A stretch of 53,138 nt of DNA from a bacterium. Its GTDB lineage: Bacteria > Campylobacterota > Campylobacteria > Campylobacterales > Sulfurovaceae. Shown here one piece after another: positions 17,117-42,668 of the stretch (its first letter is position 1; every line of letters starts with the position of its first letter). The notes under the pieces are model-generated. The model saw nothing but the letters and a program-made list of their open reading frames with translations. It had not been told where the DNA came from and did not search any database. Made by a program: the position numbers and the translations under genes. The stretch covers positions 1-53,138 of the forward strand of contig JAHJJU010000056.1 in NCBI GenBank assembly GCA_018822805.1, in the 5' to 3' direction.

Positions 17117-17137
17117 GTAGGGTCGATTTTATCGACC
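17117..17137 (+). repeat. REP-like unit A (GTAG + hairpin)
   Basis: GTAG is followed by GGTCGAT-TTT-ATCGACC, a perfect 7-bp stem. It lies between nnrD and purN and is one of the dispersed GTAG-headed palindromes in this window. Its core sequence differs from the others. Confidence 0.6.
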
Positions 17138-21783: not shown

Positions 21784-22974
21784 ATGAAACTACTCCACAC
21801 ATCTGACTGGCACCTCGGTCAAAACTTTATGGGCAAAAGCCGAGAAGAGGAGCATCAGGCTTTTCTCTCTTGGCTTGTCGAAATGATAGAAACCAAAAAG
21901 ATAGAGGTACTTTTAGTATCGGGCGATATTTTTGATACCGGCACACCCCCAAACTATGCACTGGAACTCTACTATAACTTTTTAAAAGAACTATCAACGC
22001 TACAGCGTTTAAAAACGACGATTATAACAGCCGGAAACCATGATTCCATCTCAACACTTAAAGCACCCCAACAACTTCTTGACGTACTCAATGTAAAAAT
22101 CATAACAACGGGTGATGAAGATGAAACCATCATCATACCTATCAAAAAGGACGATAGAACCCAAGCCATTGTTTGTGCTGTTCCATTTTTAAGAGACAGT
22201 ATCATCAGAGAAGCAATCTGTGGTCAAACCATTAATGAAAAAGAGAAAGTAGCCAACCGTGGCATAAAAGCCTACTACGAAAATGCCTATAAAAAAGCAT
22301 GTGAACAAAAAGAGAATGAGAACACACCCATTATCGCTATGGGACATCTTACTACGGTAGGAAGTAGAACGAGCCAGAGTGAACGAGATATTTACATAGG
22401 TGGTACATTGGATATCGGTGGAGATTATTTAGCCGGTATGTTTGACTATGTAGCTTTAGGTCACTTACACATAAATCAAACCGTTGGCTCAAATCATGTA
22501 CGCTATTCAGGCTCTCCCATACCTCTAAGTTTTTCTGAGTCTAAAAACACTCAAAAGGTAAATATTGTCTCAATAGAAGATTCAACTGTAGAAGTAGAAG
22601 AGGTAGAAGTACCACTAAAAAGAAAACTTCATGTTATCAAAGGTGATTGTGAATCCGTAAAAAAAGAGCTAAAAAAAATAGAAGATAAGCAGACATGGAT
22701 CGCCGTACTGATTGACGATGATAATGCGATGTATGCCAATCAAGAGGTACGCAACGTGGCTGGGGAACTTGGGTTGACACTGCTTGCTGTTAAAATAGAG
22801 AAGAGCGAAAAAGAGCTGGAAGCCAAAGCGATGAAAGCGATAAGTTTGGATGAGTTGTCCGTTGAGCAGGTTTTTGAAAAGAGATTATCCGATGAGCAGA
22901 TTGAAGATAAAGCGTTAGAGGCACAACTGCTCAAGAGCTTTAAAGAGGTGTATGAAAAGGTGCAGAACGCATGA
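21784..22974 (+). CDS. sbcD: SbcD nuclease subunit
   Basis: The 396-residue calcineurin-like phosphoesterase subunit of the SbcCD (Mre11-Rad50) complex, which opens hairpins and trims protein-blocked DNA ends. Metal-binding motifs are in order: HTSDWHLGQ (residues 5-13), VSGDIFDTG, TAGNHDS, AMGHLTT and ALGHLHINQ. The C-terminal capping and SbcC-binding region is acidic. The start follows a weak GGAAAAG. The stop overlaps the sbcC start by four bases (ATGA), giving tight coupling. Confidence 0.96.
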   Translation: MKLLHTSDWHLGQNFMGKSREEEHQAFLSWLVEMIETKKIEVLLVSGDIFDTGTPPNYALELYYNFLKELSTLQRLKTTIITAGNHDSISTLKAPQQLLDVLNVKIITTGDEDETIIIPIKKDDRTQAIVCAVPFLRDSIIREAICGQTINEKEKVANRGIKAYYENAYKKACEQKENENTPIIAMGHLTTVGSRTSQSERDIYIGGTLDIGGDYLAGMFDYVALGHLHINQTVGSNHVRYSGSPIPLSFSESKNTQKVNIVSIEDSTVEVEEVEVPLKRKLHVIKGDCESVKKELKKIEDKQTWIAVLIDDDNAMYANQEVRNVAGELGLTLLAVKIEKSEKELEAKAMKAISLDELSVEQVFEKRLSDEQIEDKALEAQLLKSFKEVYEKVQNA

Positions 22975-25900
22975 AGATAGTCAATGTTAAATCACTCAAT
23001 ATCAACTCACTTAAAGGTAGATTTGAAATCGATTTTGAAGCATTTTTAAAAGATGAATCCCTCTTTGCCATTACCGGACCCACAGGGTCGGGAAAGAGTA
23101 CGATACTGGACATTATTACCTGTGCCTTGTATGGAAAGACACCCAGACTCACCAACCCAAATGAACTGATGTCACGCCATACAGGGGAGTCACTTTGTGA
23201 GGTGGAATTTGAGATCAAAGGTAAACGCTACAGAAGTTCATGGAGTCAAAAAAGGGCTAGAAAAAAAGCTGATGGAAATTTCCAAACAGCCAAGATGGAG
23301 GTAGCTGAGGTAGCGAGTGGAAAAATTCTTGAATCCAAATTGCGTGAGGTTCCCAAATATATCGAGGAGCTATCGGGGCTTGATTTTGACAGGTTTGTGC
23401 AGTCGATGATGTTGGCTCAAGGGAGTTTTGATGCTTTTCTCAAAGCCAAAGAGAATGAACGAAGCAACTTGTTGGAGAAGATTACGGGAACCTATATCTA
23501 TAAACAAATCTCAAAAGAGATCTATGACACTTATTCACAAAAAAATAAAAAGATAGAAAACGATACCATAGCAATAGGAAGTATAGAACTACTTGAAAAA
23601 GAAGTCTTAGAAGAAAAGATAAAAAAATTAAAAGCGTTTAAAACAGAAAAGCTAGAGTGTGATAAAAAAGAAAAAGAGCTAAAAATCCTATCTTCATGGC
23701 TTGAAAACTTACAAAAACTAGAAGTTGACACTATAAAGTATACACAAGAGTACGAGCAAATCTCAAAAGAAAAAGAGGATAAAAAAGAGCAATTTATTAC
23801 ACTAGAACGTGCAGACAAAGCTTTACGAGTAAAACCAATCCATCAAGAAAAAACACTATTAGATAAAACAATACACAATGAAAAAGAAAAGTTAAAAACG
23901 CTTCAAAAAGAGTCAACTGAACTAAAAAAACTCTATGAAGAAAAATCAAAAGAGTTCAGCATTACAAAAGAGTCTTTTGAAAAAGAGCAAATAGCTTACG
24001 AACAAAACACAGCTAAACTAAAAGAGCTTAGAGTTTTACAAACTAAAATAGAAAACAACCAAACACACAACACTCAAATAGATAAAAAAATAGAACTGCA
24101 AACAGAAGAATTAGCAAAACTATTTCAAATAGATTTTATTACGTTACAAAGTGATGAACACCTTATATTAAAGAACTTTCAAGCTTTTAGCAAAAAGATA
24201 GCCAAGCTAAAAAAAGAGTTTGATGAGGTAGTAAAAAACTACAAAGAAGTAGATAAAAACACTCAAAAACTAAACAGTAGTGAAACAGACACAAGAACCA
24301 AATTAAAAGAGATAGAGGAGCTTTTAAAAGCATACAGCGACTATAAAGTTTTGGTTCAAAACATCTCTAAAGAGACAGAAGAACAAACAAACTATAAAAA
24401 CCAAATGGTGCTAAAAAACACGCTAAACAGTGAAAAATCAAAACTCATCAGACAAATAAACACAACACTAGAAGTTTTAAAACAGACAAGAGAAAAAGAA
24501 CTTCTCATCAAAAACTATGAAGAAGACAGAGTCAAACTAAAACAGGGTGATGAGTGCTTTTTATGTGGCTCAAAAGAACATCCGTATCTTACCCATAAGA
24601 TACGGATTGATATCGATAAAACAGAACAAAAGATACGTGAGCAAGAAGCACTTTTACAAAGAGAGACAAATGAACAAAACGATATACAAATCACTCTAGC
24701 AAAACTAAACTCAAAATGTGAGTCCGGTTCACTTGAAATAGGTAAACTCCAAGCATTCAAAACAAATATCGAAGAGCTCTTTAATAAAAGTAAATTTAGC
24801 CTTGAAGCAGACTCAAAAATCATCTTAGAAGAGCAAAAAGTAAAGCATGAGCAAAGTTTACAAGAACTGATAAATTTAAGAGAACAACGAGATGGTCTAG
24901 GTAGACAAAAAGAGTTTTTACAATCAAAGCATACAAAAAAAGAGAGGGATGAACTAAAGGTAAAAACCTTTATAAGCTCGATTACTGATTTAAAAGATGA
25001 ACAAAAAACGATAGCTGAAAAAATAAAACAACTACAAGACCAAAGCAAAAGCATCTTAGATATAGAAGATATAAATGCATTTGAAAAAACCGGCATAAAA
25101 GCTTATGAGACCATAACGCATAGATACAACACTTTACAAAACGAACTCTCCGGTCTAAAATCAAAAGATGCGTCATTAAACACTCAACTATCACAACTAC
25201 AAGCCAAACAAACAATGGATAAATCAAATTTAGAACTGCTCAATCAAAACTTTAAAAAAGCATTAGAAGAGTATCATTTTAATTCACAAGAAGATTACGA
25301 AAAGTCAAATCTAGAATCTAAAGAGTTTGAAGCTTTATCTGCACAATGTAAACGTATAGAAGAAAAATACACACAAATAAAAACACTAAAAACAGATACT
25401 ACAAACAAAGTAAAAGAGCAAAAAGAACTCAACTTAAGCGCTAGAAAAGTTCAAGAGGTCAATGAAGAGTTAAACAGCTTGCAAACTTCAATAGATGAAC
25501 TTCAAAAAACAATTGGAAGTATAGAAAAAGAGCTTGAGATACATACACAAAATAGAAAAAAACACGAAACCAAAATCAAAGAGTTAGAGAAACAAAAAGA
25601 GGCATTCCAAGTCTGGGTTAAACTCAATGAGATGATAGGTTCATCTGGTGGTGACAAATTCGCCAAATTCGCCCAAGGCATCACCCTAGATCAGCTCATT
25701 TACTTAGCCAACCAACACCTAAAGATACTCAGTCCAAGATATGAACTCCAACGAAGTCTAGACACGGGAAAACTCCTAGAGATAGAGGTAATAGATGGCT
25801 TCCAAGGCGATGTGGTACGACCTGTAAGTACCCTATCGGGAGGTGAGAGCTTTATCGTCAGTCTTTCTTTGGCTCTGGGGCTTTCGGCACTTGCCAGTCA

Positions 25901-26114
25901 AAAGATAGCGATTGATTCGCTCTTTTTGGATGAAGGGTTTGGAACGCTTGATAACGATAGCTTGGAGATGGCTCTAAATGCTCTGAATACCTTGCAGAGT
26001 TCCGGAAAAATGGTCGGGGTGATTTCGCATGTGGAAGCTTTGAAGGAGAGGATTGGGTTGCAGATTAAAGTGGTGCCTAGGGGGGATGGGACGAGTTTGG
26101 TGGAGGTGGTGTAG
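22971..26114 (+). CDS. sbcC: SbcC ATPase subunit
   Basis: The 1047-residue SMC-like ATPase partner of SbcD. Walker A is GPTGSGKST at residues 36-44. Two long coiled coils rich in E, K, L and Q flank the zinc-hook CFLCG (about residue 529), which dimerises two molecules. The ABC signature LSGGESF lies near 955 and Walker B LFLDEGFGTLD near 985. Codon use becomes strongly A-rich through the coiled coil. The TAG stop is part of the GTAG head of the palindromic element that begins at 26111. Confidence 0.96.
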   Translation: MKIVNVKSLNINSLKGRFEIDFEAFLKDESLFAITGPTGSGKSTILDIITCALYGKTPRLTNPNELMSRHTGESLCEVEFEIKGKRYRSSWSQKRARKKADGNFQTAKMEVAEVASGKILESKLREVPKYIEELSGLDFDRFVQSMMLAQGSFDAFLKAKENERSNLLEKITGTYIYKQISKEIYDTYSQKNKKIENDTIAIGSIELLEKEVLEEKIKKLKAFKTEKLECDKKEKELKILSSWLENLQKLEVDTIKYTQEYEQISKEKEDKKEQFITLERADKALRVKPIHQEKTLLDKTIHNEKEKLKTLQKESTELKKLYEEKSKEFSITKESFEKEQIAYEQNTAKLKELRVLQTKIENNQTHNTQIDKKIELQTEELAKLFQIDFITLQSDEHLILKNFQAFSKKIAKLKKEFDEVVKNYKEVDKNTQKLNSSETDTRTKLKEIEELLKAYSDYKVLVQNISKETEEQTNYKNQMVLKNTLNSEKSKLIRQINTTLEVLKQTREKELLIKNYEEDRVKLKQGDECFLCGSKEHPYLTHKIRIDIDKTEQKIREQEALLQRETNEQNDIQITLAKLNSKCESGSLEIGKLQAFKTNIEELFNKSKFSLEADSKIILEEQKVKHEQSLQELINLREQRDGLGRQKEFLQSKHTKKERDELKVKTFISSITDLKDEQKTIAEKIKQLQDQSKSILDIEDINAFEKTGIKAYETITHRYNTLQNELSGLKSKDASLNTQLSQLQAKQTMDKSNLELLNQNFKKALEEYHFNSQEDYEKSNLESKEFEALSAQCKRIEEKYTQIKTLKTDTTNKVKEQKELNLSARKVQEVNEELNSLQTSIDELQKTIGSIEKELEIHTQNRKKHETKIKELEKQKEAFQVWVKLNEMIGSSGGDKFAKFAQGITLDQLIYLANQHLKILSPRYELQRSLDTGKLLEIEVIDGFQGDVVRPVSTLSGGESFIVSLSLALGLSALASQKIAIDSLFLDEGFGTLDNDSLEMALNALNTLQSSGKMVGVISHVEALKERIGLQIKVVPRGDGTSLVEVV

Positions 26115-26134
26115 GGTAAATCAATGCACCCTAA
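26111..26134 (+). repeat. REP-like unit B, overlapping the sbcC stop
   Basis: GTAGGGT...ACCCTA with an imperfect inner palindrome (AAATCAATGC). The right half (AATGCACCC) matches the unit C core, so B looks like a decayed member of that subfamily. The TAG of its GTAG head is the sbcC stop codon. Confidence 0.5.
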
Positions 26135-37547: not shown

Positions 37548-37991
37548 ATGGACAAACCAAAAGTAGCCCTCTCAGCTTGCCTTATGGGCTGTGCTTGTCG
37601 TTATGATGCAAGGGATAATTTGAATGAATCACTATTAAAGCAATTGGATTCATTTGAGATTGTCCCTTTTTGCCCCGAGGATGACTGCTTTGGTTCTCCT
37701 CGTCCGACCATGGATTTAATTGATAATGGAGAAGGTATAAATGCTATCTCTAACGAGAATGGGCAAAACCTCTCTGTACCTATTCTTGACTATGCTCACA
37801 ATTTTTTTGAACAACATCCCGATATAAAACTGTTTATTGGTAAAGATAGAAGCCCAAGTTGTGCCGTACAAAGTGGAAAAGTTTACAGTAATCAAAAAGA
37901 GCTTCTTCATACACAAGGAACAGGCTTAATGACTAAAATAGCTTTAGATTTAGGCATCAAATGTTGGGATAGCGAAGCGTATACAACGTAG
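37548..37991 (+). CDS. DUF523 family protein
   Basis: A 147-residue protein with an N-terminal LSACLMGCACRYDARDN Cys cluster and later FCPEDDCFGSPRPTMDL and GKDRSPSCAVQSGKVY, matching DUF523 (conserved Cys residues, possible metal or Fe-S site; function unknown). It is coupled to the aldehyde dehydrogenase by one-base spacing. Its TAG stop (37989-37991) is contributed by the GTAG head of repeat D, so its C-terminus may have been reset by insertion of the element. Confidence 0.85.
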   Translation: MDKPKVALSACLMGCACRYDARDNLNESLLKQLDSFEIVPFCPEDDCFGSPRPTMDLIDNGEGINAISNENGQNLSVPILDYAHNFFEQHPDIKLFIGKDRSPSCAVQSGKVYSNQKELLHTQGTGLMTKIALDLGIKCWDSEAYTT

Positions 37992-38100
37992 GGACAACGC
38001 CCCCGTGCTTGTCCGATACCCAATATGCAAAACAAATTCAAATTGTCTGTGTCCGAAAATCAAAATGAACATCGGACAACCACAGGGGGATTGTCCCTAC
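37988..38100. repeat. REP-like inverted pair D (113 bp, 30-bp arms)
   Basis: The left arm 37988-38017 and the right arm 38071-38100 match at 26 of 30 positions when one is inverted. Each arm starts GTAG GGACAA and contains TTGTCC, so each is a hairpin unit of the same type as H. The central 53 bases are AT-rich and non-coding. Both outer GTAG heads contribute the stop codon of the flanking convergent gene (37989-37991 plus; 38097-38099 minus). Confidence 0.75.
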
Positions 38101-38297
38101 GAATATTGTTTAAATTGTTCTAGCCAATCAATATCTTCTTGGCTTAATTTGCCTATTTTATTAAGAAGACCTCTTTTAATGGACTCTAAATCTTCAAGTT
38201 CTAAATATTCCAAATAGTTGGGATTTATCTCTAATTTATCTTCGGGTTTATAGGAGAGTAGGGCTTCTATCTCTTTTAATAATTTTTCTTTGTTCAT
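38097..38297 (-). CDS. Small hypothetical protein
   Basis: A 66-residue acidic, helical protein (MNKEKLLKEIEALLSYKPED..., ending DWLEQFKQYS) of unknown function. The alternative ATG at 38315 has no ribosome-binding site; for 38297 the A/G-rich AAAAAGAAAAGAC is weak but acceptable. Its stop codon comes from the right-hand GTAG of repeat D. The leader overlaps the promoter region of the divergent bcp gene. Confidence 0.55.
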   Translation of the reverse strand: MNKEKLLKEIEALLSYKPEDKLEINPNYLEYLELEDLESIKRGLLNKIGKLSQEDIDWLEQFKQYS

Positions 38298-38317
38298 TGT
38301 CTTTTCTTTTTGCATTT

Positions 38318-38826: not shown

Positions 38827-38870
38827 GTAGGGGTAGGGGTGGAGCCATGTCTCCACCCTTGTTTCTACCC
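38827..38870 (+). repeat. REP-like unit F (GTAG + nested hairpin)
   Basis: GTAG (38827-38830), then GGGTAG, an inner stem GGGTGGAG/CTCCACCC, a TTGTTT bulge and CTACCC, eight bases after the bcp stop. It fills the convergent gap with the pbp1A gene and could stop transcripts from both sides. Confidence 0.55.
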
Positions 38871-42536: not shown

Positions 42537-42668
42537 GTAGGTCGGGTTGCCCTCATCCCGACACGTATTTAAATAGTTGAGATGCTTTTTATTTTATTCA
42601 AATTCATATAAATAGTTTGAATTTTGTTTTATGCAGATTTATGTCGGGATGAGGGCACCCCGACCTAC
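42537..42668. repeat. REP-like inverted pair E (132 bp, 27-bp arms)
   Basis: Arms 42537-42563 and 42642-42668 match at 26 of 27 positions when inverted. Each begins GTAG GTCGGG and carries CCCGAC, so each can fold alone. The 78-base centre is AT-rich and holds a further small palindrome (ATTCAAA/TTTGAAT). The right head lies three bases after the alaS stop on the same strand. Confidence 0.78.

Follow-up and report, generated by a model that had tools for sequence, protein, structure and literature searches.

The window, by which we mean the whole stretch of 53,138 nucleotides that was analysed, is a contig (C48) of a 2.79-Mb Campylobacterota genome (G000), for which the nearest named relative found is a Campylobacteraceae MAG with 70% protein identity, at the one close locus in the scan. 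It contains two genes lying tail to tail, a DUF523/TudS-like gene, whose Pfam family now bears the name 2-thiouracil desulfurase, and a small conserved gene for which a Pfam search gave no match, and both of them end on the same palindromic element (Table 1). The initial annotation had described this element as a 113-bp inverted pair with 30-bp arms identical at 26 of 30 positions, and the arms found here (37987-38017 and 38071-38101; 31 nt, 87% complementary) are the same ones with the outer C/G counted. We also found the GTAG reported at both ends on the outward strand, as GTAG on the left and CTAC on the right. The gene ends agree with that description as well, since the left head supplies the TAG that closes the open reading frame at 37548-37991 (+) and the right head the one that closes 38097-38315 (-), the latter frame being, when read from its second ATG, the 66-residue gene of the initial annotation.

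Table 1. Coordinates of the features of the window considered in the text
Feature	Position	Strand	Remarks
DUF523/TudS-like gene	37548-37991	+	Pfam PF04463; 147 aa (150 aa without the element)
Family-A REPIN (inverted REP doublet)	37988-38100	.	GTAG...CTAC, 113 bp; repeat and fold analysis
Left REP	37988-38014	+	GTAG head and GGACAA/TTGTCC hairpin
TAG in left head	37989-37991	+	Current stop of the DUF523/TudS-like gene
Spacer between the two REPs	38015-38073	.	
Right REP	38074-38100	-	GTAG head and GGACAA/TTGTCC hairpin
TAG in right head	38097-38099	-	Current stop of the small convergent gene
Small conserved gene	38097-38315	-	66-72 aa, depending on the choice of start
Fossil TAA	38111-38113	+	DUF523 stop in the reconstructed empty site; same place in L026, L027 and L029
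Degenerate REP-like GTAG hairpin	26111-26134	+	Its TAG is the stop of sbcC (22971-26114)
Second REPIN of the window, family D (GTAGGTCGGG...)	42537-42668	.	RAYT gene at another place in the genome (L019)

The element is a REPIN, a mobile palindrome of a known bacterial class, REPINs having been described as mobile doublets by Bertels and Rainey in 2011 (PMC3116915). A GTAG precedes an imperfect hairpin at both ends, and the two REPs are inverted around a defined spacer. Both arms belong to a repeat family that we called family A (GTAGGGACAA...TTGTCC), which is present in multiple dispersed copies in the genome, including six further full doublets of 98-113 bp, and which is restricted to a few species of the genus. 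As single-stranded DNA or as RNA, the whole element is predicted to fold into one long hairpin (z = -5.6 to -5.7 relative to shuffled sequences). Family A is one of several REP families in this genome, in which near-identical 27-mers occur at unrelated loci.

The genome also encodes REP-associated tyrosine transposases (RAYTs). Among its seven Y1_Tnp genes, three were scanned with the model NF047646 REP_Tyr_transpos, and two of them scored 147.7 and 160.5 bits, above the cut-off of 80, with the third below it at 63.8. Several RAYTs are flanked by REPs of family B, C or D, as in the case of L019 (family D) and L021 (family B), and none was seen next to a family-A REP, either in G000 or in those relatives in which family A occurs. 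In genome G031 a Y1_Tnp gene adjoins a family-A REPIN (C301); since it matches the general IS200 model strongly and lies near what appears to be the end hairpin of the insertion sequence itself, we read it as an ordinary IS200 neighbour and not as the cognate family-A RAYT.

The history of the locus can be read from relatives in which the site is uninterrupted. When exactly GTAG...CTAC (37988-38100) is excised, the joined flanks (TATACAAC-GAATATTGTTTAAA) align across the junction without gaps to three relatives (L026, L027 and L029), with no target duplication, and in these three the two convergent genes overlap and there is no GTAG at the locus. Other relatives show indels of 3-4 nt near the junction, and L040 differs more. 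In the joined sequence DUF523 runs three codons beyond its present stop to a TAA, which is still readable to the right of the element. In the left flank, the former stop of the small gene can no longer be seen, which is what drift of this flank after the insertion would produce. The gapless empty site and the fossil TAA thus indicate that the element brought its TAG with it, shortened DUF523 by three residues and parted two overlapping genes, and together they give a clean before-and-after view of one REPIN insertion.

Stops were likewise replaced in the small gene and, at other loci, in the genes for NadA, IspE, MurE, a heptosyltransferase and others, the proteins changing in length by 0-4 residues. 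At four elements (C48:37988, C59:16581, C68:5312 and C77:2991), both convergent genes take their stop from the REPIN. Removing the element at C68 restores the IspE stop (TGA) and the NadA stop (TAA, one codon further), the joined sequence having one extra codon (3 nt) compared with three relatives and the stops lying near the orthologous positions. At C77 (MurE) the joined sequence is off by 6 nt, and the site at C59:16581 can no longer be reconstructed, so that a strictly gapless junction is seen at one locus only, 37988-38100. In other species, trpA of G020 and one gene of G024 also end on REP heads.

Comparison of C-termini with orthologues, a check that the initial annotation had suggested, gave mostly TAA stops, often at a slightly shifted codon, so that the outcome named there as contrary evidence, orthologues ending at the same codon with the same TAG, did not occur. 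For the genes stopped by family A, the orthologue in sister species ends with TAA in 30 of 41 comparisons. The median C-terminal length difference is mostly 0-2 residues, with the G000 protein usually the shorter one, and genes that have a REP 1-15 bases past their stop nearly all end at the orthologous residue. Because only 11 control genes have orthologues, and some of these also vary in length, the length comparison taken by itself is only suggestive.

In order to count the heads that coincide with stops, we used 408 kb of stretches from the 2.79-Mb genome, picked to hold nearly all family-A copies, which leaves the genome-wide rate of the other families less certain; genes were called as ORFs with a codon model, a non-standard gene finder, and the REP families were set by hand-written patterns after inspection of the hairpins. 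Family A has 26 exact-pattern heads in this sample, 12 of which provide an in-frame TAG stop for a gene on the same strand, and a further five start within 15 bases past a stop. Under a null in which insertions fall with equal probability anywhere in intergenic DNA or in the final five codons of a gene, the expected share of in-frame stops is about 1.5%. Considering only the frames that run into a family-A head, 12 hit the TAG and two read past it (C17:32951 and C46:13277), against a by-frame expectation of one third. Further stop cases come from family C (four) and family E (one), and none from family B (0/12) or family D (0/2). In two of the four family-C cases the head has mutated to GTAA, so that the stop is TAA (C1:41022-41046, L057; C59:19309-19330, L064). 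Family-B heads, such as those at 38833 and 50764 in the window, also begin with GTAG, yet none overlaps a stop, and therefore the effect is not general to GTAG heads. The excess of GTAG-stop overlap over chance, a count proposed in the initial annotation, is thus large in the 408 kb but confined to families A, C and E. The same limit applies to its proposal that a palindrome bringing its own stop may trim or replace C-termini, a mechanism that was largely right, as judged from the loss of three residues by DUF523 relative to the empty site and to the TAA-ending orthologues, and from the other replaced stops. Either selection or a preference for gene ends must lie behind the excess, and the two are inseparable here.

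In our view, the probable course of events is that a REPIN with its own GTAG was inserted between the two tail-to-tail genes and supplied both stops, that a RAYT moved it as single-stranded DNA, and that insertions falling off frame were lost by selection. The REPIN, two inverted GTAG-headed REP hairpins, would be carried by the RAYT in single-stranded form, with the GTAG belonging to the element and not to the target, and would insert cleanly where the coding ends overlap. With GTAG facing outwards at both ends of the palindrome, each incoming frame would meet a TAG within a base of the junction, and both genes would gain a new stop with small changes. Since, with GTAG at both ends, one frame in three meets a stop whichever way the element is read, some insertions at gene ends would be nearly harmless and be kept, and those with the TAG out of frame, or deeper in a gene, would mostly be lost, leaving the excess of in-frame TAG. 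A clean junction without duplication is what a single-strand reaction like that of IS200/IS605 would leave. The known cleavage sites of TnpAREP are CT or CA, and no clear dinucleotide is seen at the insertion sites here, which counts against this explanation, as do the single strictly gapless junction, the family-B heads and the lack of a RAYT next to family A. TnpAREP binds GTAG and the hairpin as single-stranded DNA, and GTAG helps to choose the cleavage site (PMC8266576).

Instead of random insertion followed by selection, insertion may possibly be targeted to convergent gene ends, for example to single-stranded DNA or structures arising from convergent transcription or terminators, a reading that we hold only tentatively. 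The enrichment far exceeds the uniform benign-insertion null, and in other species the orthologous ends of several genes (SDR gene, GalU, HisH and ABC-F) are occupied by REPs from different families, both as targeting would predict; however, no shared target sequence is apparent by eye in the joined sites, family B lacks the pattern, and much of this distribution would also be expected from selection against other sites.

It is improbable that GTAG is instead a pre-existing target, with the REPIN inserting 3' of a genomic GTAG, so that ends of the type xxG-TAG are safe and the stop is unchanged. IS608 does insert next to a pre-existing target, TTAC. In the case of C74:26275-26577, orthologues have a GTAG stop with no clear REP (L116 and L109), and a family-C REP of G003 (L111) and a family-A REPIN of G000 (C74:26162-26170, L069) share their starting point, TAATATTT^GTAG, as this model would have it. 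Against it, GTAG is absent from the three relatives at 37988, and the four extra bases that the model needs are missing from the alignment of the joined flanks; on this gapless empty site we reject it for the locus. Furthermore, it explains the stop at one end only, whereas four elements supply both, orthologue stops are mostly TAA, and GTAG stops make up 39 of 299 benign GTAG sites, those with REPs included.

Native, non-mobile hairpins that arose in place as GTAG-tailed terminators or mRNA-stability elements would account for the position after stops, the strong RNA hairpin and the family-C hairpins at the same stops (HisH, GalU and ABC-F) in several species, but this origin is very unlikely and we reject it, given the lack of an Rfam match for the element and of a T tract directly 3' of it in the sequence, the dispersed near-identical 27-mers, some of them read through inside genes, and the uninterrupted empty site in relatives.

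Returning to a REPIN that inserts with its own GTAG, the closest known systems are the REPIN/GTAG REPs with a RAYT (TnpAREP), namely the GI-GIII REPINs of Pseudomonas, SMAG of Stenotrophomonas and the BIMEs of E. coli. The elements described here share with them the GTAG head, the hairpin, an inverted doublet of about 70-130 bp, dispersal, a position near gene 3' ends and the presence of RAYT genes, and differ in the Campylobacterota host, the low copy number (tens) and the absence of a cognate RAYT of family A among those found. With IS200/IS605 (IS608) they have in common the single-stranded hairpin ends, the lack of target duplication and a Y1 transposase; in contrast, they contain no internal transposase, and their GTAG is part of the element, not a tetranucleotide already present in the target. 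GTAG REP termini were reported to give TAG stops often to flanking ORFs (Di Nocera et al. 2013, PMC3733652), and since stop donation by GTAG REPs was thereby published, our finding is a new example of a known property. Relative to the part of that paper considered here, we add the empty-site reconstruction, the frame test with the bias it revealed, the comparison of orthologue C-termini and the two-sided cases. The finding bears on the survival of REPINs in gene-dense genomes, in that GTAG, the published recognition motif of the transposase, also carries a well-placed stop codon, and it calls for caution, as mobile DNA and not protein evolution is the source of some TAG stops, and of some of the short differences in C-termini seen between sister species.

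At the end of the SDR gene, the REPs of G031 and G000 are of a different family from those of G021, G030 and G032. This site and the TAATATTT^GTAG point in G000 and G003 suggest that REP families turn over at fixed sites. A more doubtful extension is that REPINs of family A settle specifically in convergent gene ends that overlap, where a palindrome with a TAG facing outwards on each side would serve as a two-way stop cassette, uncouple the genes and repeatedly reset stops from TAA to TAG in a genus. Palindromes of 30-31 bp with the form GTAG...CTAC (C77:2991-3020, C57:8297-8327 and C77:18398-18427) resemble REPINs collapsed to one hairpin with GTAG at each end.

In the window as a whole, 11 GTAG heads were counted, seven of them reported as overlapping, or lying within 13 bases downstream of, a stop on the same strand. 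This is right to within one base: three overlap a stop on the same strand (26111, 37988 and 38100), those at 17117, 42668 and 50764 start at most 13 bases past one, and that at 38833 starts 14 bases past. The sbcC stop (26112-26114) does lie within a GTAG, as had been noted, but the hairpin there is weak, with a degenerate 6-bp stem. The sbcC orthologues are 1-2 residues longer and, at 53-56% identity, too diverged to judge a change of stop.

Some REPs lie within coding frames. In HisH of G000 (C59:18683-19312, L064), a family-B REP forms part of the protein sequence (PVGAEPSLCPLF), and the gene also has its stop in a family-C head (GTAA); the internal insert is decayed in G021 and absent from G032 and G003. 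The frame of a 214-residue protein (C17:32735-33379, L060) runs through a family-A REP (VGTTPPCLSDA), and another (C46:12782-13315, L061) has a REP-encoded C-terminal tail, VGTTPLCLSDAQ, that makes it about seven residues longer than its orthologues.
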